From: Leisingera thetidis
GTDB taxonomy: Bacteria; Pseudomonadota; Alphaproteobacteria; Rhodobacterales; Rhodobacteraceae
DNA: 64,000 nucleotides
Assembly (NCBI RefSeq): GCF_025857195.1
Contig: NZ_CP109789.1
Span: 1 to 64,000, forward strand
Direction of reading: 5' to 3'
The notes under the pieces were generated by a model. It had not been told where the DNA came from. It saw only the letters and a program-made list of their open reading frames with translations, and ran no database searches. Position numbers and translations under genes: made by a program. The number at the start of each line of letters is the position of its first letter. Positions within the stretch are counted from its first letter, which is position 1. Below are positions 22,324-34,874 of this stretch, one piece after another.

Positions 22324-23234
22324 GGCTTTGTCAGGTTGTTGACGCCGCACCGGCGGGGTAGTTCTCTGTCATGCTGAACATCAAAGATTTGCCCCGGATC
22401 AAGGGCTTCAGGTTTCCGCGGAGTGTGATTGGTTACGCCGTTTGGGCCTACCATCGGTTCGCTCTGAGCCTGCGCGACGTTGAGGATCTGTTGGCGGAAC
22501 GCGGTGTCTCAGTTTCGTACGAGACGATCCGTGACTGGGTGAACCGGTTCGGGCATCAGTTTGCCGCAAAGATCCGCCGGGACCGTTCAGCGCCGGCGGA
22601 TAAATGGCATCTCGATGAAGTCGTGATCCGGATCAAAGGCCGGAGCCACTGGCTTTGGCGGGCCGTAGACGCCAAGGGCGATGTGCTCGAAATCCTGATC
22701 CAGTCGCGACGCAACAAGGCCGCAGCCCTCCGTTTTTTGCGGAAACTCATGAAACGGTGGGGCCAGCCCCGTGTCCTGGTGACGGACAAACTGCGATCCT
22801 ACGGTGCAGCCAAGGCACAGATCGCACCGGAATCGAGCATCGCCAGCACAAGGGCTTGAACAACCGAAGCGAGGCCTCCCACCGGCATACCCGAAGACGC
22901 GAGAAGATCATGGGCCGGTTCAAATCCCCGCGCCAGGCGCAGCAGTTCCTTTCTGCGCACGATCAGGCCGCCAGTCTGTTCCGCCCGAAGCGCCACCGTC
23001 TATTGCGCGTCAATCTGAGTGAGACGCCAGCGACAATCAGGATGATAACGTCACCGATGCCGCGACATAGAATCTCATCCAGTTTGTCGCGCAGCAACCG
23101 TCTGTCCGCAGAATCTTACCGCCACGCAAGGTACGACGCGTTCTCGCTGTGGATCGGCTATTCCGCCGAATTGACCGCTTGATCTTCGCCGTCACCAATA
23201 AACTCAGCCTGACATCAGCAACCTGATAAAGCCG
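22324..23234 (+). mobile_element. IS6-family element (type B), copy 2, 911-bp class
   Basis: Inverted relative to copy 1. Ends: GGCTTTGTCAGGTTGTTGAC at 22324 and the complement of GGCTTTATCAGGTTGCTGAT ending at 23234. Flanking 8-mers (TCAAAGAC, GCATGAGG) do not match each other or those of copy 1. The sequence is nearly identical to copy 1, including the 102-base insertion (repeat CCGTCT at 22996 and 23098), so the copies are recent duplicates. Confidence 0.88.
22371..23182 (+). pseudogene. IS6-family transposase (type B, copy 2), one-base deletion
   Basis: Identical in plan to copy 1 until near 22830. There, copy 1 has three C in GCACCCGGAATCG (KAQIAPGIEHRQHKG), while this copy has two and shifts frame to APESSIASTRA, then stops at 22859. 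The remaining frame resumes the normal protein down to 23182. It would be inactive unless the missing base is an error. Confidence 0.88.
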
Positions 23235-23326
23235 CATGAGGATGTGCCGATAGACGACCGCGACCGTTTGAGCGTCAACGGGCGAAAGTGCGGCCGGGAC
23301 CACTGGAGGCATTGAAAATGCCGATA

Positions 23327-23352
23327 TTAGCTAATATATACATTTTAGCTAA
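23327..23352. promoter_or_regulatory. Twin TTAGCTAA operator of the toxin-antitoxin pair
   Basis: The 8-base palindrome TTAGCTAA occurs at 23327-23334 and 23345-23352, 18 bases centre to centre, in an AT-rich island inside GC-rich DNA. It lies just ahead of the antitoxin start at 23372. Phd/YefM antitoxins usually bind such paired short palindromes to repress their own operon. Function inferred from placement. Confidence 0.6.
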
Positions 23353-23371
23353 TGCCGACTTGGAGGATGGT

Positions 23372-23614
23372 ATGAAAGAGTTTTCTTCAACGGACCTTGC
23401 GAACAAGACTGGTGATGTGCTTGCAGCCGCAGCGCAATCCCCGGTGTCAATTGCGAGGCACGGAAAACCGCGTTTTGTAGTTCTGAGCGCGGAGGTATTC
23501 GACCTGCTGAAACGTGAGAAGTCCACCCGTCGCGCCGTTCACGTATCGGATCTGGATGATGAAGGAGCAAGTTCACTTGTTGCAGCGTTGACCGAAAGCA
23601 TCGAAAGTGACTGA
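23372..23614 (+). CDS. Phd/YefM-family antitoxin
   Basis: 80 residues from the ATG at 23372, chosen because GGAGG lies 5 bases upstream; an earlier in-frame ATG would run through the operator palindromes. The sequence MKEFSSTDLANKTGDVLAAAAQSPVSIARHGKPRFVVLSAEVFDLL is the Phd/YefM DNA-binding fold (strand-helix-strand with HGKPRFVVLS). The C-terminal 25 residues would wrap the toxin. Overlaps the next gene by 8 bases, as is usual for such pairs. Confidence 0.85.
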   Translation: MKEFSSTDLANKTGDVLAAAAQSPVSIARHGKPRFVVLSAEVFDLLKREKSTRRAVHVSDLDDEGASSLVAALTESIESD

Positions 23615-24032
23615 TCCGGACAGATCCCCCCAATTAGGGGATGTATGGCAATACCCTTACCTTTGGAGCCGGGAAGACCGGCGCGGTGAGACAGAGGGTC
23701 GAAAGCCTCGTCCATCGGTTGTTACCTTGCTGTTGAAGACCGGTTCAGGAGGCACGAGAGTGCTTTTTTTGCCCATTACCTCGCAGCCGCCAGGCGGAAA
23801 TCGTTATGCAGTCGAAATTCCCGAAATGGAGAAACGGCGGGCGGGTTTGGACGCAGACATATCCCTCTGGATCATTGCCGATGAGTATAACGAAGATCTG
23901 TGCGGGGAATCCTACTATATCGAGCCCAACGGAAAAATCGGCAGCTTCAGTAAGTCATTCGTAAAGCAAGTCCAGGGCGTCATGATCCAGGCCATCCAAG
24001 CACAACGCTCAAGGAAAGTGAGCAGATCTTAA
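23607..24032 (+). CDS. PemK/MazF-like toxin candidate
   Basis: 141 residues from a GTG overlapping the antitoxin stop. LGDVWQYPYLWSREDRRGETEGRKPRPSVVTLLL followed by VLFLPITSQPP resembles the MazF/PemK fold, where G-D-V-W opens the first strand and K-x-RP-x-V precedes the conserved loop. MazF-type toxins are ribosome-independent mRNA interferases. Pairing with a Phd-type rather than a MazE/PemI antitoxin would be a mixed module. The assignment rests on pattern similarity and position. Confidence 0.6.
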   Translation: MTDPDRSPQLGDVWQYPYLWSREDRRGETEGRKPRPSVVTLLLKTGSGGTRVLFLPITSQPPGGNRYAVEIPEMEKRRAGLDADISLWIIADEYNEDLCGESYYIEPNGKIGSFSKSFVKQVQGVMIQAIQAQRSRKVSRS

Positions 24033-24505: not shown

Positions 24506-24685
24506 GTCAAAAACATCTCGCTCGTTCCCTTTGGTTGGGATATCCGCCGTCCAGTCGATTGAACACAACAAGGAAAAATTTATGTCGTGTCCGCAAATCG
24601 TGTTGGGGGTGAGATAACAATTCACGCCACACACTTCGGTTGCGGAGAAATCAGCCAATATCTATGCATGACATGATGGCGAAAG

Positions 24686-26070
24686 CAGCTATGGCTGAAT
24701 CTGGTGTTTGGGCGGTTTGAAAGCTGGCGGTGCATCTGGTTGGTTTGATGTCGCCAAACAAACCACCAACCATCGAGGACGCACCACCATGAATGACGCT
24801 ACCATCATCGAATTTGCCGGTCGAGACACCGTGTCGGACCCGCTGACGGATCTTCTGCGCAAGGGCGCGCGGGAGCTTCTGCAAACGGCGGTCGAGGCGG
24901 AGCTGGACGCTTTTCCTGGCCGAATTTGCGAAACACCGCACCCCGGAGGGCCGGGCCGCGGTTGTTCGGAACGGACACCACCCCGAACGCGCCGTGCAGA
25001 CCGGGATCGGCCCGGTCACGGTGCAGATCCCGAAGGTGCGCTCGAAGACGGGCGCGCCTGTGGCGTTCCGCTCGGCGCTGGTCCCGCCTACGTCCGCAAG
25101 GCGAAGTCGATCGAGGCGGCGCTGCCCTGGCTGTACCTCAAGGGCATCTCTACGGGCGAGATGGGCGCAGCACTCAAGGCGCTCCTGGGCCCGGACGCGA
25201 CCGGCTTCTCGGCCAAGACAGTGGCGCGGCTGAAGGCGCAATGGGCGGAGGAGTACGACGCCTGGCGCAAGGCCGATCTTGGCCGTGATGAATGGGTCTA
25301 TGTCTGGGCCGACGGGATCTACAGCGGCTTGCGCGGCACAGATGACCGGCTCTGCGCCCTGGTCGTGATCGGCGTCAATGCGCGCGGCGAGAAGCATTTC
25401 CTGGCCATCGAGGACGGCGTGCGGGAAAGCACCCAAAGCTGGCGCGAGGTCCTGCTGGGGCTCAAAAAGCCGCGGCCTCAACGCTCCGAAACTGGCGGTC
25501 GGCGACGGGGCCATGGGATTTTGGGCGGCTCTTGAGGAAGTCTATCCCTCCACCCGGCAACAGCGCTGCTGGGTGCATAAGACGGGCAACGTTCTGAACT
25601 ATCTGCCAAAGCGCAGTCAGCCCAAGGCAAAGAAGGCGCTGCACGACATCTGGCAGGCCGAGACCCGTGAAGATGCCCGCAAGGAGTTTGACTTGTTCGT
25701 CGGCACCTACGAAGCGAAATACCCCAAGGCGGTCGAATGCCTGGTCAAGGACCGCGACGAACTGCTGACCTTCTACGACTTCCCCGCCCAGCACTGGCAG
25801 AGCATCAGGACGTCAAATCCCATCGAGAGCGCGTTCGCCACCATCCGCCACCGCACGAAACGCACCAAGGGATGCCTGAGCCGGGACGGGATGCTCCACA
25901 TGATGTTCAAGCTCGGCCAATGCGCTGAGAAAAGCTGGCGCAAGCTGCGCGGCTTCGCTCATCTCGCAGACGTCATCGAAGGCGTCGATTTCATCAACGG
26001 CATCAAGCCATCAACACAAGATCAGGCCGCCGCTTGATGACCGCCCAAACACCAGATTTGACAATAGCTC
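24686..26070 (+). mobile_element. IS256-family element, copy A, 1385 bp
   Basis: Inserted inside the IS1595 element with a perfect 9-base target duplication TGGCGAAAG (24677-24685 and 26071-26079). Ends: CAGCTATGGCTGAATCTGGT on the left and, read inward, GAGCTATTGTCAAATCTGGT on the right. Copy B at 32596-33981 is almost identical. Confidence 0.93.
24789..26037 (+). pseudogene. IS256-family transposase (copy A), three indels
   Basis: The expected 414-residue protein starts MNDATIIEFAGRDTVSDPLTDLL and has the mutator-type DDE core (VWADGIYSGLR, VGDGAMGFWAALEEV, TSNPIESAFATIRHRT). Compared with copy B it has T4 instead of T3 at 24911-24914, one T missing at about 25089 (which restores frame), and A5 instead of A4 at 25464-25468. 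So residues of about 43-100 are out of frame and the chain ends early after LLGLKKPRPQ. The rest of the gene continues intact to 26037. Confidence 0.9.
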
Positions 26071-26139
26071 TGGCGAAAGTCGTAAGCACTGCAAGCTTGC
26101 AGAACGCAAACTGTATCACTATGTTATAGAGAGGCGAAG

Positions 26140-26521
26140 TTGAGAGCATTCAAGGGCAAGGTGTTTTCCCGATGGGCCAAGAAGGAGAGCATTGACGATA
26201 AAGATCTCTGCACAGCGGCCAAGGAGGCCTTTGCCGGAAAGGTTGATGGTGATCTCGGGAGTCATCTGTTCAAGAAGCGCGTGGCAAGGAAAGGTGGCGG
26301 AAAATCAGGGGGGATATCGCACCATTCTTGGTTTCAGAAAGACAAACTCCGATCGGATTTTCTTCCTTTATGGATATCCCAAGAACGCCCGGTCGAACAT
26401 CAACTCGAAGGAACACAAGGCCTTGGCGATGCTTGCCGCGGATTTGATTAAGACAACTGACGAACAAGTCGAAGCCCTGAAGGCCAAAGGAACGATCGCA
26501 GAACTGGAGTGTAAGAAATGA
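26140..26521 (+). pseudogene. higB: HigB/RelE-family toxin, frameshifted at a G6 run
   Basis: Starts at a TTG behind AGAGGCGAAG. The first frame gives MRAFKGKVFSRWAKKESI...FKKRVARKGGGKSGG; the G6 run at 26308-26313 then shifts it. With one G removed it continues YRTILGFRKTNSDRIFFLYGYPKNARSNI and ends at 26521, a full-length HigB2/RelE-type toxin (PF06296-like) of about 126 residues. These cut mRNA on the ribosome. The stop overlaps the antitoxin start (ATGA), with toxin first, the HigBA order. If the frameshift is real, only the antitoxin is functional. Confidence 0.82.
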
Positions 26522-26820
26522 GCGACATTCTCGATATCGCACACGACATGGCGAAAGATCTGCATGAGGTCGGCGCCATGGACGACATCACCATGCGGGT
26601 GATGGATGAGCTGTGCTTGCCTGAACCACGGACCTTTGCTGCGAAGGACATCAAGGCCATCCGCAAGAAAACCCGGATGAGTCAGGCCGTTTTTGCTGCT
26701 TTTCTCAACGTTGGCAGCAACACAATCGCCCAGTGGGAGCAAGGAAACCGCTCTCCGAGCGGGCCTTCCGTGCGCCTTTTGGATGTGATCGACCGAAAGG
26801 GCATCGAGGCTATCACCTGA
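26518..26820 (+). CDS. higA: HigA/NadS-type XRE-family antitoxin
   Basis: 100 residues with a C-terminal helix-turn-helix (IRKKTRMSQAVFAAFLNVGSNTIAQWEQGNRSPSGPSVRLLDVI, residues 50-93). This matches HigA-like antitoxins of the toxin-first operons. It overlaps the toxin gene by 4 bases. It ends 4 bases before the stop of the convergent IS1595 transposase, showing that the pair sits inside that element as a passenger. Confidence 0.88.
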   Translation: MSDILDIAHDMAKDLHEVGAMDDITMRVMDELCLPEPRTFAAKDIKAIRKKTRMSQAVFAAFLNVGSNTIAQWEQGNRSPSGPSVRLLDVIDRKGIEAIT

Positions 26821-26824
26821 CCTC

Positions 26825-27814
26825 TCACGCCCACCGAAATGCTTCCAATGGCGAAATGAGCGACTGACGGGCGATAAACCAATCCACATACCCTGGCAGA
26901 TACTTGGACGCCGGCCCTTTGAATTGCCGGATAAAATCCTCGTATCTCGAATGGAGAGAGTTGATGTTCTGGATGTGGTGCGAGGCCGTCGCCCGCGCCT
27001 TGCCCTTGGCGCCACCAACCACGAAATGCTCCAATCCCTTCACCTGGGCAAAATGGCCATACGCACGCAATGCGTCGCTGCACAGGACCGCATCGGCCGG
27101 GATCACAGGATCCAGAGCCTTCTGGATCGTCGCATTGGCTCGGTCGGCGATCCGCTGGGCCCTCTTGGCCCCGCCACGATCGACCACCGTCAGGATCGGC
27201 AACTGCCATTGGCTGAGGCCCCTCTGCATCTTCACGCCCAGCTTGTTGTATTCATACCAGCGAAGGCGCGGAGGCTTCGGGCTGTTGAGCGGGTCTCGCT
27301 TGTATCTCACCCACTCGCGGGAACCCTTCCGGGATTCCTTCTGGTAGGTCTCATCTACTTCGACGATGCCGGAAAATTGATCGTCGGATGAATCACTTAG
27401 CCCCTGCATGATGATCAGACGCCAGCGCCAGATTGTGTGCTTATCGAGGCCCAGGCGATTGGCCAATTGCCGAATGGAAGAAGGTGCGCGAATGCCCAGC
27501 ATGTCCCGGATCACTTCGAGAAAAAGATCCGGCCGATGGAAGTGCCTGATCTTGGAAGTCGTCCTACCACAGAAGGTCTTCTGACACCCCAAACAGCGGT
27601 ATCGTTGAACCTTGGTTCGAGTCCGTCCCCATTTCTGGCGACGGTCGTCGCCGCAATGCGGGCACTTGTGTTCTTGTTCTGTTCGTGATTCAATCTCAGA
27701 CAGGGCTTCGGTTTTTCTCCGAACATCCCTAATCTTTGTTCTGGCGTCCTCGATCTGCGCCGGGTTCAAGTCATGAAACCGCTCGAGGAATTGCCGAAAG
27801 TCGTGTGCCTGCAC
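26825..27814 (-). CDS. IS1595-family (ISXO2-like) transposase
   Basis: About 330 residues if the GTG complementary to 27812-27814 is the start (VQAHDFRQFLERFHDLN); the frame is open further upstream but that part lies across the element end. A zinc ribbon (CPHCGDDRRQKWG...YRCLGCQKTF) is followed by an HTH (SSIRQLANRLGLDKHTIWRWR) and an ISXO2-like DDE domain with D/E in GIVEVDETY, D in LTVVDRGG, D in CSDALRAYGHF and N/H in HHIQNINSLHS. The motif set identifies the IS1595 family. Confidence 0.88.
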   Translation of the reverse strand: MQAHDFRQFLERFHDLNPAQIEDARTKIRDVRRKTEALSEIESRTEQEHKCPHCGDDRRQKWGRTRTKVQRYRCLGCQKTFCGRTTSKIRHFHRPDLFLEVIRDMLGIRAPSSIRQLANRLGLDKHTIWRWRLIIMQGLSDSSDDQFSGIVEVDETYQKESRKGSREWVRYKRDPLNSPKPPRLRWYEYNKLGVKMQRGLSQWQLPILTVVDRGGAKRAQRIADRANATIQKALDPVIPADAVLCSDALRAYGHFAQVKGLEHFVVGGAKGKARATASHHIQNINSLHSRYEDFIRQFKGPASKYLPGYVDWFIARQSLISPLEAFRWA

Positions 27815-27917
27815 GATCCGCTCCGCTGTTTTTTTAGGAGCTATATTGGCCAATTGTGAAAATCCGAAGGCTACACGGAAATTTTCCCAACACGATTTGC
27901 GGACACGGCAAAAATTT

Positions 27918-28226
27918 ATGGATCTGAAAGCGATGTCTTCCACGGAGCTAAGGCAGCTCGAAACCGATGTGCAAGCCGCCATCCAGGTTCGGGAGAAGGA
28001 GGACCTGAAGGCAGCTTTTCGGGCGGCGGAAACTGCAGTTGCTGAGTTTGGGTTCACGCTTGAAGAGGTTTGGTCCAAGATTGGAAACCGACCCAAACCT
28101 AAGTCACCGCCCAAGTATCGGAACCCTGAGAACCCAAGCCAATCCTGGACGGGCAGGGGGCGCAAACCCCAATGGATTGTCGAAGCTATAAGAAACGGGC
28201 GCGACATTTCCGAATTAGAAGTGTGA
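27918..28226 (+). CDS. H-NS/HvrA-family nucleoid protein, cut off from its ribosome binding site
   Basis: 102 residues: MDLKAMSSTELRQLETDVQAAIQVREKEDL forms the coiled oligomerisation region and SQSWTGRGRKPQWIVEAI the C-terminal AT-hook-like DNA-binding motif of H-NS proteins. The start ATG lies within the IS1595 target duplication. The matching upstream half, with AAGGA at 24570-24574, is 3.3 kb away on the other side of the element. Next to the start now is only CACGGCAAAAATTT, so translation should be weak. The stop codon TGA is the first three bases of the IS3 end, so the last residues may also be altered. Confidence 0.85.
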   Translation: MDLKAMSSTELRQLETDVQAAIQVREKEDLKAAFRAAETAVAEFGFTLEEVWSKIGNRPKPKSPPKYRNPENPSQSWTGRGRKPQWIVEAIRNGRDISELEV

Positions 28227-28262: not shown

Positions 28263-29150
28263 TTAAGCTACTCTCTGCCGCTGCTGACCAGGTTGGGTTT
28301 CGTCTTTTCTCAGCCAATAGACCATGGCAGGAGGCTTGCCGCCAAGGGCGGAATGTGGGCGTTTTCGATTATAGAACTCGATCCATCTGCCGACGCCTGC
28401 CTTCGCCTCTGATCCAGTCTCCCAAGCGTGCAAGTAGACGCACTCGTATTTCAGGCTGCGCCAGAGCCGTTCGACAAAGATATTGTCGAGGAACCGGCCT
28501 TTGCCATCCATCGAGATGCGCACACCGGATCGCCGCAGCCTGTCCGTCCAGGCGAAGGACGTGAACTGGCTGCCCTGATCTGTATTCATGATCTCGGGCG
28601 GGCCGAACTTGTGGATGGCCTCGTTCAGCGCCTCGACACAGAAGTCCGCTTCCAGCGTGTTCGAGATGCGCCAGGCCAGCACCTTGCGGGTGTGCCAGTC
28701 AATGATCGCCACCAGATACAGGAACCCCTTGCGCATTGGCAGATAGGTGATGTCTGCCGCCCAGACCTGGTTCGGGCGCCCCACCCGCAGACCACGCAGC
28801 AGATAGGGGTAGGTCTTGTGTCCCTTCGCTGCCTTGCTGGTGTTGGGCTTCTGGTAGATCGGCATGAGCCCCATCACCCTCATTAGCCGCCTGATCCGCT
28901 TTTCGTTCACCAAATGACCCTCATTGCGCAGATGCCAAGTCATCTGCCGCACACCGAAGAACGGCGTTTCCAGGAACTGTTCGTCGATCCGACGCATCAG
29001 CATCAGGTTCAGAGCCGTCTCGCCTTTGGGTTGATAATAGAACGACGACCGCGGGATCGACAGCAGCTTGCACTGCTTGCCAATGGGCAGATTGGCATTG
29101 GCAGGCTCGATCATTTTCCGCCTCACTTGCCGATCCACGGTTTGAGCTTT
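28263..29150 (-). pseudogene. IS3-family transposase orfB, 5'-truncated
   Basis: Recognisable from VDRQVRRKMIEPANANLPIGKQCKLLSIPRSSFYY to the end. It has the HTH_21 region, rve integrase core with D in VWAADITY, D in IMNTDQGSQF and E in IFVERLWRSLKYE, and the C-terminal FYNRKRPHSALGGKPPA. The sequence upstream of about 29150 belongs to the inserted IS110 flank, so the natural N-terminus and the orfA-orfB shift site are lost. Confidence 0.85.
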
Positions 29151-29228
29151 CGTGACAAAAGATCCTATGAGGGCGGAACGCTCTGTTTGGGTAGCTTGGC
29201 CGCATCTACTTTTGCGGGAGACCAATTC

Positions 29229-30341
29229 ATGGACCATGACCATACTATCGAACCGAAGACATTTGTCGCGATTGAACTGAGCAAGCGCAGCTGGGTTATC
29301 GGTGTCGCCAAGCCTGATCGAGACAAGCCTTCCATTTATCGCCTGACTGGTGGCGATGCGTCGGGTTTGCTCGCCCGACTACGACGAACTTCAAGCGCCG
29401 AGAATATGGTCCTCTGTTTCGAGGCTGGCCATGACGGGTTCTGGTTGGCGCGGTTTCTACAGGCAAAAGGTTATGATGTCCGGATCCTTGATCCGGCAAG
29501 TCTGCAGGTCAATCGCCGGGCCAGGCGGGTCAAGACGGATCGCATTGACGCTTTGGCGATGCTTCGCGCATTGGCCGCTGTTTACCGGGGGGAAAGACAC
29601 GTCTGTGCGCAGGTTCGTGTCTTGACCGTCGAGGAAGAGGACGCCCGGCGGTCGCATCGCGAGCGCGATAGGCTCATTCACGAGAGAACGGCCCACGTGA
29701 ACCGTATCAAGGGTCTCCTGTTTGCCCAAGGCATTCGGGATGTGGAGCCACGATTGCGCCGGACGCGCATAGATTTCAATGAATTCAGAACGGCGGAAGG
29801 GCACCCGTTACCACCGCGGCTACGTGCCGAACTTGAAAGAGAATACGCGCGACTGGTCATGGTCGAGGACCAACTGCGTCTGGTGGAGAAAGAGCGAGAC
29901 ACAGCTGACTCGCAGTCGCCTGCCGTCGAGCAGAAACGGCTCGATCTCTGTCGGCTGCAAGGTATTGGCGGAGCGGCCTCTGCTATTCTTGCTCGAGAGA
30001 TTTTTGCCCGATCATTCTCGTCGCGGCGGCACCTCGCATCGTATCTGGGCCTGACGCCGAGCGCCTATGACAGCGGCACCGTGACCAAGTGCCAAGGCAT
30101 CTCCAAGGCGGGTAATTCCTGGGCGCGACGCATTCTGATCGAGATCGCATGGCTGTGGCTGAAGTATCAGCCGCAAACGACCTTGGCGCGCTGGTACACT
30201 CAGCGGACGCAGGGCCAGGGAGCGCGTATCCGCAGGATCATGCTGATCGCTTTGGCGCGTAAATTGGCCATCGCCTTGTGGCGGTACGTGGAAACCGGCG
30301 TCTTGCCGGAGGGCACAAGACTGTCGGCCAAGGCAACCTAA
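29229..30341 (+). CDS. IS110-family transposase
   Basis: 370 residues from the ATG at 29229 behind GGGAGA. N-terminal RuvC-like DEDD domain: the first acidic residue is Glu, in FVAIELSKRSWVIG, where most relatives have Asp; then CFEAGHDGFWLAR, LDPASLQVNRRARRVKTDRIDA. The C-terminal transposase_20 region is complete (LCRLQGIGGAASAILAREIF, SYLGLTPSAYDSGTVTKCQGISKAGN). It sits inside the IS3 element. The gene looks intact. Confidence 0.88.
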   Translation: MDHDHTIEPKTFVAIELSKRSWVIGVAKPDRDKPSIYRLTGGDASGLLARLRRTSSAENMVLCFEAGHDGFWLARFLQAKGYDVRILDPASLQVNRRARRVKTDRIDALAMLRALAAVYRGERHVCAQVRVLTVEEEDARRSHRERDRLIHERTAHVNRIKGLLFAQGIRDVEPRLRRTRIDFNEFRTAEGHPLPPRLRAELEREYARLVMVEDQLRLVEKERDTADSQSPAVEQKRLDLCRLQGIGGAASAILAREIFARSFSSRRHLASYLGLTPSAYDSGTVTKCQGISKAGNSWARRILIEIAWLWLKYQPQTTLARWYTQRTQGQGARIRRIMLIALARKLAIALWRYVETGVLPEGTRLSAKAT

Positions 30342-30640
30342 CGAACTCCAGAGCTTCAGGTCTCCGGCCAGAGACCTGAGGGCGGGATGACGGGCGTCGT
30401 GTCAACGATTGGCGCTACTGTTGAGCGCCGGCAAAAAAGTGTGAACCCGTCCCCGATCCGTTCGTGTGAATGCAAGATTGTGGTCAGCCGTCATGGAGCT
30501 ACCGGATATAAGTTGATGCGGGCGACCCCGCATGATCTTCACACAGCAATCGATCCGCCCGGTGCCGAGACATGGAAACGCTGCGAAACATCGCAGCGAC
30601 AGGTAACTGTGCGCCTGTTGACAAACATCTCCTCATATAA
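30342..30640. other. Non-coding tail of the IS110 element
   Basis: No supported gene. It follows the transposase stop and ends where IS3 orfA sequence begins again. IS110-group elements encode a structured guide (bridge/seek) RNA next to the transposase gene, on either the 5' or 3' side depending on subgroup, and this stretch is a candidate place. No structure was computed. Confidence 0.35.
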
Positions 30641-30895
30641 ATCGTTGGCAACGGCCAGCTCCCCAATCTTAGCGTGCAGCTCTTTGACCTGCTCTTCGTC
30701 AATCTCCGGGGTTTTCTTGCCGCCACGCTCGAACACGCCGGACGCGCCCTCCAGGAGCGCCCGCTTCCAGCTGTGGATCATCGTCGGATGAACGCCAAAT
30801 TGGCTTGCCAGCTCTGCAACAGTCCGCTCGCCCTTCAAAGCCTCAAGCGCGACCTTGGCCTTGAACTCAGGCGAATGGTTCTTCCGTTTCGACAT
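30640..30895 (-). pseudogene. IS3-family orfA fragment
   Basis: MSKRKNHSPEFKAKVALEALKGERTVAELASQFGVHPTMIHSWKRALLEGA is the HTH_8 domain of IS3 orfA proteins. It continues to VKELHAKIGELAVAND, where relatives go on F-L-x-R-K-L-K; here the sequence changes to LYEEMFVNRRT, which marks the junction with inserted DNA. Confidence 0.8.
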
Positions 30896-32595: not shown

Positions 32596-33981
32596 CAGCT
32601 ATGGCTGAATCTGGTGTTTGGGCGGTTTGAAAGCTGGCGGTGCATCTGGTTGGTTTGATGTCGCCAAACAAACCACCAACCATCGAGGACGCACCACCAT
32701 GAATGACGCTACCATCATCGAATTTGCCGGTCGAGACACCGTGTCGGACCCGCTGACGGATCTTCTGCGCAAGGGCGCGCGGGAGCTTCTGCAAACGGCG
32801 GTCGAGGCGGAGCTGGACGCTTTCCTGGCCGAATTTGCGAAACACCGCACCCCGGAGGGCCGGGCCGCGGTTGTTCGGAACGGACACCACCCCGAACGCG
32901 CCGTGCAGACCGGGATCGGCCCGGTCACGGTGCAGATCCCGAAGGTGCGCTCGAAGACGGGCGCGCCTGTGGCGTTCCGCTCGGCGCTGGTCCCGCCTTA
33001 CGTCCGCAAGGCGAAGTCGATCGAGGCGGCGCTGCCCTTGGCTGTACCTCAAGGGCATCTCTACGGGCGAGATGGGCGCAGCACTCAAGGCGCTCCTGGG
33101 CCCGGACGCGACCGGCTTCTCGGCCAAGACAGTGGCGCGGCTGAAGGCGCAATGGGCGGAGGAGTACGACGCCTGGCGCAAGGCCGATCTTGGCCGTGAT
33201 GAATGGGTCTATGTCTGGGCCGACGGGATCTACAGCGGCTTGCGCGGCACAGATGACCGGCTCTGCGCCCTGGTCGTGATCGGCGTCAATGCGCGCGGCG
33301 AGAAGCATTTCCTGGCCATCGAGGACGGCGTGCGGGAAAGCACCCAAAGCTGGCGCGAGGTCCTGCTGGGGCTCAAAAGCCGCGGCCTCAACGCTCCGAA
33401 ACTGGCGGTCGGCGACGGGGCCATGGGATTTTGGGCGGCTCTTGAGGAAGTCTATCCCTCCACCCGGCAACAGCGCTGCTGGGTGCATAAGACGGGCAAC
33501 GTTCTGAACTATCTGCCAAAGCGCAGTCAGCCCAAGGCAAAGAAGGCGCTGCACGACATCTGGCAGGCCGAGACCCGTGAAGATGCCCGCAAGGAGTTTG
33601 ACTTGTTCGTCGGCACCTACGAAGCGAAATACCCCAAGGCGGTCGAATGCCTGGTCAAGGACCGCGACGAACTGCTGACCTTCTACGACTTCCCCCGCCC
33701 AGCACTGGCAGAGCATCAGGACGTCAAATCCCATCGAGAGCGCGTTCGCCACCATCCGCCACCGCACGAAACGCACCAAGGGATGCCTGAGCCGGGACGG
33801 GATGCTCCACATGATGTTCAAGCTCGGCCAATGCGCTGAGAAAAGCTGGCGCAAGCTGCGCGGCTTCGCTCATCTCGCAGACGTCATCGAAGGCGTCGAT
33901 TTCATCAACGGCATCAAGCCATCAACACAAGATCAGGCCGCCGCTTGATGACCGCCCAAACACCAGATTTGACAATAGCTC
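32596..33981 (+). mobile_element. IS256-family element, copy B, 1386 bp
   Basis: Bounded by the same ends as copy A, with its own perfect 9-base duplication TGTGTTCGG at 32587-32595 and 33982-33990. It interrupts the EamA gene. Confidence 0.93.
32699..33947 (+). pseudogene. IS256-family transposase (copy B), two indels
   Basis: Begins in frame (DAFLAEFAKHRTPEGRAAVVRNGHHPERAVQTGIGPVTVQIPKV, ...VPPYVRKAKSIEAALP). One extra T at 33038-33039 shifts it (LPLAVPQGHLYG instead of LPWLYLKGISTG), and one extra C in the run at 33692-33696 shifts it again (YDFPRPALAEHQ instead of YDFPAQHWQSIR). At each of these places copy A has the intact reading, so the two copies together define a functional ancestor. 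Confidence 0.9.
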
Positions 33982-34874
33982 TGTGTTCGGTGCTGTTGTT
34001 CATAGTCATGTCATCGCTGATCAAGGCTGCAGCACCACATGTTCCGCCTGGACAGGCAGTATTTTTCCGCTCTCTGTTTGCTATTCCAGTGATCTTTACA
34101 TGGCTGGCACTGCGGGGTGATCTTTCCACGGGGCTTAAGGTTCAATCGAGGCTGTCACATTTCTGGCGTGGTTTCGTTGGGACCGGCGCGATGGGGCTGG
34201 GGTTCGCTGGACTCGGCTTTCTGCCACTGCCAGAAGTGACTGCAATCGGATATGCAGCACCGCTATTGGTCGTAATTTTCGCAGCGATGTTCTTAGGCGA
34301 GCCGGTCGGTGTCTTTCGTTTGACAACGGTCGGATTGGGTTTGGCGGGTGTTTTGGTGATTCTCGCTCCACGGCTCACGTTTCTGACAGGCGAGACCGTC
34401 CAGACAACAGAAGCTGTGGGTGCCATTCTGGTGCTGATGGGAGCGGTCTGCGCCGCATTGGCCCAAATTTATGTGCGCAAACTGGTGCAAACAGAACAGA
34501 CTTCGGCCATCGTGTTCTACTTTTCTCTAACCTCGACGGGATTGTCCTTGCTGACCTTGCCCTTCGGCTGGGTGGTCCCGGATGAGCGGGAGATTGCTCT
34601 GTTGGTTGCTGCAGGACTTCTCGGGGGGACGGGGCAGATTTTCCTGACCTCCGCCTATCGTTTTGCCGGGGCATCCGTCGTAGCTCCCTTCGATTATGCC
34701 TCGATATTGTTCGCGCTGCTCATTGGGTATTTCGTTTTTTCCGAGGTGCCAACGAGCCAGATGCTGATGGGGTCCACTATCGTGATTGCCGCAGGGGTAT
34801 TGATCATTTTGCGGGAAAGCCGGTTGGGCCTGAAACGCTCAAAAGCCCGCTCGGGCATGACACCACAAGGGTAA

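Follow-up and report, generated by a model that had tools for sequence, protein, structure and literature searches.

We describe a transposon of the IS1595 family that carries a toxin-antitoxin (TA) pair, located in a stretch of 64,000 nucleotides (positions 1 to 64,000 of contig NZ_CP109789.1, assembly GCF_025857195.1) of Leisingera thetidis, hereafter called the window. The element occupies positions 24583-27910 and is 3328 bp long, including a nested insertion sequence (IS) of the IS256 family. It is very probably a transporter IS (tIS), in which one transposase gene and its passengers, here a HigBA2-like pair, lie between a single pair of ends. Judging from aligned sequences, members of this lineage in Rhodobacteraceae differ wholesale from one another in the stretch that follows the transposase stop, up to the last few dozen bases, and the TA pair reads as one of many cargoes in a single interchangeable slot. 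The IS1595 family and its passengers are already known, while the TA passenger and the turnover of the slot appear to be new. The components of the element and of its target site are:

24575..24582, no strand: target duplication, left copy, 8 bp, AAAATTTA
24583..24607, plus strand: terminal inverted repeat, right end in transposase orientation, TGTCGTGTCCGCAAATCGTGTTGGG
24677..24685, no strand: IS256 target duplication, left copy, 9 bp, TGGCGAAAG
24686..26070, plus strand: IS256-family insertion, transposase frame-shifted in the assembly
26071..26079, no strand: IS256 target duplication, right copy, 9 bp, TGGCGAAAG
26114..26137, plus strand: 24 bases just 5' of the toxin start, probable promoter and ribosome-binding region, identical in the window and in the related elements L003 and L050
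26140..26521, plus strand: toxin gene, PF06296 RelE-type, HigB-2-like, in two overlapping frames (26140-26451 and 26192-26521)
26518..26820, plus strand: antitoxin gene, XRE-type helix-turn-helix (HTH), HigA-2/MqsA-like, 100 amino acids
26825..27814, minus strand: IS1595-family transposase by profile matches, 329 amino acids from a GTG start, coordinates including the stop codon
27886..27910, minus strand: terminal inverted repeat, left end in transposase orientation, TGCCGTGTCCGCAAATCGTGTTGGG
27911..27918, no strand: target duplication, right copy, 8 bp, its last base being the A of the hns-like start codon
27918..28226, plus strand: hns-like gene (PF00816), coding frame intact, cut off from its AAGGA-like ribosome-binding sequence

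The element and its anatomy are real, and the original prediction, made from the sequence alone, had drawn them largely right. The matching ends it described are terminal inverted repeats of 25 bp that agree at 24 of 25 bases; the runner-up combination around the transposase reaches only 18/25 for the ends and 6/8 for the repeats, so chance can hardly account for them. Short terminal inverted repeats and an 8-bp target duplication are characteristic of the IS1595 family, and both are present here (24/25 and AAAATTTA). The target repeat had been given as 10 bases. The repeat itself stands, and its length is corrected to 8 bp, because copies at other sites (L003, duplication ATAATTTT; L004, TTATTATT; L050, AAACATTA) fix the ends; the longer match is a chance identity with bases of the element's own ends. 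An exact 8-bp repeat in the best register was found in 26 of 31 end-bounded elements (window included), and the remaining ones scored 6/8 or 7/8. The elements were delimited by maximising the match of ends and duplication together, and for that reason the duplication score of any one weak element does not count as independent evidence.

The transposase had been called ISXO2-like, in agreement with its scores against NF033547 (142.9 bits, cut-off 75) and PF12762 (36.4 bits, cut-off 27). The N-terminal zinc-binding domain of IS1 and IS1595 transposases is present (NF050000, 34.9 bits, cut-off 28), and residues C64, C67, C87 and C90 are conserved in at least 26 of 27 aligned transposases, the rows being those elements whose transposase forms one uninterrupted match. 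Translation most likely starts at the GTG preceded by GGAG, giving 329 amino acids, because L003 and L004 lack the longer frame that opens with TTG in the window. The transposase and antitoxin genes are convergent, with 4 bases (26821-26824) between their stop codons, as had been noted from the start.

In HigBA-type systems the toxin gene comes first, and a RelE-superfamily toxin is paired with an XRE-type HTH antitoxin. This layout is present in L003, where the toxin is one intact frame of 126 amino acids (PF06296, 136 bits) followed by the antitoxin (PF01381, 29.5 bits, cut-off 23). The window pair shares the higBA gene order; its toxin frame is broken in the assembly, within a homopolymer run, and each of the two resulting frames matches a different part of PF06296. 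Of the HigBA passenger first proposed, a HigBA-like pair inside the ends is thus confirmed and an intact toxin frame in the window is not. The closest solved structures are HigB-2 for the toxin (E 1.4e-4) and HigA-2 for the antitoxin (E 1.3e-7), represented by PDB 5ja8, 5ja9 and 5jaa, which we take to be Vibrio cholerae HigB-2/HigA-2; unlike that pair, the window toxin matches PF06296, and the structural similarity is weak and partial. No NCBIfam family was obtained for the L003 toxin at E values up to 0.1 and none for the toxin in PADLOC, and the antitoxin lies under the NCBIfam cut-offs for MqsA (TIGR03830, 44.2 against 61.8) and NadS (32.4 against 60). Because the NCBIfam cut-offs for toxin and antitoxin are not reached, HigBA-like seems a fair label for the predicted pair, and HigBA proper is unsupported. 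The window, L003 and L050 agree at every one of positions 26114-26137, whereas L003 and L050 share only 75% identity overall; these 24 bases therefore probably hold the promoter and ribosome-binding site of the toxin gene; a sigma-70 consensus scan of the region before the toxin found no promoter.

Comparison with copies at other sites shows that the pair and the transposase have travelled as a unit. The uninterrupted 1.93-kb form, proposed earlier as something to look for, was found as L003 in Roseovarius gahaiensis; it is 1932 bp long, 99% identical to the window element apart from IS256, and sits at a different site with the toxin gene open. L050, in genome G432, has the same pair at a third site and is collinear with L003 over the whole element at 75% identity. 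The genomes of the window, L003 and L050 represent three genera of one family. The defining feature of a tIS is present: passenger genes lie within one pair of ends, and the same unit occurs at three sites with three duplications.

A fourth element, L004 of Aliiroseovarius sp. S1123, matches the window transposase at 87% identity and carries a different TA pair (PF05973 and PF13744), which shares the strand of its transposase, in contrast to the window pair. L003 and L004 are 84% identical up to L003 base 1042, 43 bases short of the transposase stop at 1085, and beyond that only the last 24 bp match. Tree support is 100/99 for the window with L003, 99/98 when L004 is added and 95/93 when L050 is added, and the simplest history would be that one TA pair was replaced by another in the L004 line. 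Whether higBA is always included had been posed as a check, and it is not: the window, L003 and L050 share it, L004 has another TA pair, and other resolved elements have other genes or none. L004 and the sister clades rule out higBA as a fixed part of this IS1595 lineage.

The wider lineage was surveyed by transposase alignment (E <=1e-60). Relatives were found in 21 of 394 genomes of the family and 18 of 390 of the order, the two sets overlapping, in 7 of 84 genomes from the genus to which G675 (taken as the L003 genome) belongs, and, at class level, in 1 of 385 genomes, the window's own. Ends and a target duplication were recognised in 31 of the 48 loci examined (17/27, 6/10 and 8/11 in three batches). 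Between transposase stop and right end, 21 of the 31 elements hold 437-2411 bp, a range in which the figure for the window includes IS256. The other ten are nearly without cargo, nine of them ending 35-43 bp past the transposase stop and L089 119 bp past it. TA pairs, of two kinds, are present in four of the 21 cargo-bearing elements. A Pfam scan of ten cargo proteins, which left out L082-L084, L130 and L131, identified DUF4440, glyoxalase-like, cupin and ArsR-type regulator proteins, with no family at E 0.01 for three proteins and only sub-cut-off matches for one; further cargo labels (MFS, GST, LysR, NUDIX, GNAT, SRPBCC) were read by eye. In L090 the 437 bp contain no convincing cargo gene. 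The G+C content of the cargo is lower than that of the transposase in 18 of 20 cargo-bearing elements (window excluded owing to IS256).

Exchange of the cargo is most visible in a sister clade of 11 elements (support 100/100, inner order unresolved). In each of the 55 pairwise comparisons, homology extends from the left end to around the transposase stop and returns for the last 19-59 bp, and in none of them does a cargo match exceed 60 bp. About 20 additional bases inside the terminal repeat are common to several right ends of the clade, which therefore look descended from one right end and not like random look-alikes. The left cargo junctions are scattered, some inside the transposase C-terminus and others up to about 50 bp beyond the stop; this variation argues against a site-specific integration system, and cassette insertion of that kind into the slot is accordingly disfavoured. 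A leftover internal right end, as a trace of composite origin, was sought inside the 31 elements at <=5 mismatches to each one's own right-end core, and none was present. The elements L058 and L069 provide a second case of cargo travelling with the element, with one cargo at two sites and 94% identity over their length.

In genome G1087 five cargo-free copies of 1151 bp (L132-L136) differ at <=3 bases, so this member has recently been active; the duplication is an exact 8-bp repeat in four copies and 7/8 in one. A cargo-free element of equal length and 91% identity to these copies was found in Pseudorhodobacter turbinis (L071). Of 40 plasmid records with a relative, four were examined, and L071 is the only one of these to have given ends; the survey of TA cargo did not extend to the remaining 36, almost all of which have identities of about 25-33%. 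A search of plasmid DNA gave only three partial matches, all in the transposase, and of 43 matching stretches on viral contigs none was a relative.

Units without an intact transposase were sought with a 20-base end pattern with three free positions, which matched 9 of 248 family genomes. Of nine regions examined in five of the matching genomes, two gave ends with a 7/8 duplication and seven gave no pair. L165 (8450-9000, genome G136) is 551 bp long with a single open reading frame (ORF) of 107 amino acids and no transposase, and L164 (2765-4111, genome G232) is 1347 bp long with a transposase remnant and a 237-amino-acid ORF. Non-autonomous relatives of the lineage thus seem to exist. They recall minimal insertion cassettes and miniature inverted-repeat transposable elements, from which the window element differs in carrying its own transposase. 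At L051 a second pair of ends begins just past the right duplication.

Relatives of the toxin at E <=1e-15 are present in 10 of 394 family genomes, a count that includes the genome of the window, and number 516 in a protein collection at E 1e-3. Only one of the nine toxin loci outside the window has both ends (L092, which is the L050 element), and the other eight had no ends by a degenerate pattern within 1-1.5 kb per side (less at contig ends). The pair thus belongs to a wider pool open to capture.

The target site was examined for its state before insertion. The hns-like start codon and the AAGGA-like ribosome-binding bases now lie on opposite sides of the element. At L115 and L118, in a genome of the same genus (G014), a nuclease gene is followed by an hns-like gene at similar spacing, and the matching parts are 67-75% identical to the window flanks. 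Neither locus has the element, higBA or an end-like sequence at up to 5 mismatches, and we regard them as empty sites, homologous and not necessarily orthologous to the window site; five more genomes of the genus gave hns-like matches, none of which aligned to the left flank. A higBA pair without IS1595 ends at the same site, which had been named as a counter-test, was not seen. The order of events stands as initially proposed, from hns-like gene to IS1595 to IS256.

These observations suggest a course of events. The element landed in the gap between the hns-like start codon and its ribosome-binding site, which produced the 8-bp duplication, and the IS256 copy entered its passenger half later, the passenger being a HigBA2-like type II TA pair with its own upstream region. 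The transposase would act on the pair of ends and move whatever lies between them. Illegitimate or composite events close to the transposase stop and to the right end would account for the exchange of cargo, a route we infer because the left junctions vary. TA cargo would in turn favour cells or replicons that keep the element, and it is plausible that the pair would stabilise the element or its replicon. We tentatively extend this to a one-slot gene shuttle, a possibility we would put somewhat below even chances, in which the transposase and left end stay together, the stretch from the transposase stop up to the right 20-60 bp is repeatedly exchanged, TA pairs have been acquired at least twice as self-maintenance cargo, and transposase-less units are moved in trans.

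Several points weigh against this explanation. The window element is single-copy in its own genome, where its activity can only be presumed, and the broken toxin frame in the assembly may mean that this copy gives no working pair. No confident ends were found at 17 of the 48 loci, which include contig ends and decayed or broken copies as well as L138 (17/25 ends, 8/8 duplication). No intermediate of cargo capture was seen, so that the capture route is inferred. Finally, the values from the comparison of nonsynonymous and synonymous substitutions (dN/dS) between L003 and L050 are 0.18 and 2.0 for the toxin, 0.05 and 2.1 for the antitoxin, and 0.19 and 1.1 for the transposase, and a dS near 2 is close to saturation.

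The alternative that survives best is neutral hitch-hiking, in which the pair is one randomly captured gene set of no benefit to the element; we consider it possible, with the balance tilted a little the other way. The great diversity of cargo among elements and the broken toxin frame in the window agree with it. Hitch-hiking without benefit is harder to reconcile with two different TA pairs in one small clade and with the low dN/dS of toxin and antitoxin between L003 and L050, where amino-acid changes are few relative to silent ones and point to selection on both cargo genes.

It is improbable that the pair is an integral module of this IS1595 lineage, kept for working with transposition, as has been proposed for transposons of the Tn3 family (PMC7157771, excerpts). 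Such a role would fit the retention of pair and transposase together across 25% divergence (window, L003, L050), and L004, nested among the carriers, again holds a TA pair, though another one. It fits poorly with the survey, where a TA pair is found in only 4 of 21 cargo-bearing elements and 10 of 31 elements have little or no cargo (five of these being copies in one genome); because of these counts, the pair does not appear to be needed for spread. Coincidental adjacency of an IS1595 and an unrelated higBA between fortuitous repeats, for which one might cite the eight toxin loci without ends in the stretch searched, can be set aside as having a negligible probability, given the same unit between target duplications at three sites and two homologous sites without it. 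L003, L050 and the two empty sites exclude chance repeats as ends.

tIS of the IS1595 family are reportedly due to Siguier et al. 2009. As described in the available part of PMC3129680, they carry between their ends passenger genes unrelated to transposition. The window element resembles them in its IS1595-type transposase, short inverted ends and passengers unrelated to transposition, and differs from those covered there in that the passenger is a TA pair and varies between close relatives of the lineage. Our literature search (titles and starts of abstracts among the matches listed, with ISfinder and most subscription papers outside its scope) recognised neither a TA passenger in an IS1595 element nor passenger turnover among close relatives, and TA cargo inside an IS1595 element is not reported in the available parts of PMC3942029, PMC10214660, PMC6209633 and PMC10132070. 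TA pairs in Tn3-family transposons are described in the accessible sections of PMC7157771, where a stabilising effect on the transposon is suggested; the word IS1595 is absent from its main text. The window element shares with these a type II pair on a transposon, and the combination of PF05973 and PF13744 in L004 is listed there for some Tn3 elements. Unlike them, it has another transposase family, is an element of 1.9-2.2 kb, and has its pair beyond the transposase stop and not next to a res site. Neither Tn3 TnpA nor a resolvase was among the ORFs scanned between the ends (IS1595 transposase, TA pair, IS256 transposase), a search that did not extend to res sites, and the 1932-bp form leaves no room for Tn3 TnpA.

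The lineage offers a compact and tractable case of how an insertion sequence turns into a transposon that carries genes, its close members being distinguished chiefly by their cargo. At 1.9 kb it is also a natural test of whether an addiction module helps the transposon or only its replicon. Anyone who did not search for the ends would take the two genes for an ordinary TA pair beside an IS.

The IS256 family is characterised by a Mutator-type transposase and a target duplication of 8-9 bp. Both features are present in the nested element at 24686-26070, which had been predicted to have its own duplication and does (TGGCGAAAG, 9 bp); its C-terminal transposase frame matches NF033543 (166.2 bits, cut-off 150) and PF00872 (104.7 bits, cut-off 21). 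L003 holds the same stretch uninterrupted, without IS256. Between IS256 and the toxin start lie 69 bp, including one copy of the duplication. The window genome has 11 near-identical IS256 copies, eight of which (L103-L110) were compared; 8 of 1389 columns differ, seven of them indel columns in short single-base runs and one a substitution. This pattern suggests homopolymer errors in the assembly. Because of it we do not claim that the toxin is dead in the cell, and assembly error is a real possibility behind both broken frames, that of the toxin and that of the IS256 transposase. Gene breaks anywhere in the window assembly should be read with care, given these indels. One of the copies, L106, has no matching duplication, which suggests rearrangement. 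The near-identical IS256 copies at 24686-26070 and 32596-33982 have the same orientation, with higBA, the hns-like gene and the IS1595 transposase lying between them; in principle, they could form a compound transposon.

Contigs C2, C6 and C7 of the assembly gave a match to RepC; C3 (233,856 bp), which contains the window, gave none. A second TA-like pair is present at 23288-24032, a few hundred bases left of the element, and consists of a Phd/YefM antitoxin (PF02604) and an overlapping ORF of 141 amino acids without a family match; it adjoins a staphylococcal-nuclease-like gene. The element is crowded by IS-like genes at 22371-22859 and 28263-30895, which by eye resemble IS6-, IS3- and IS110-type transposases.

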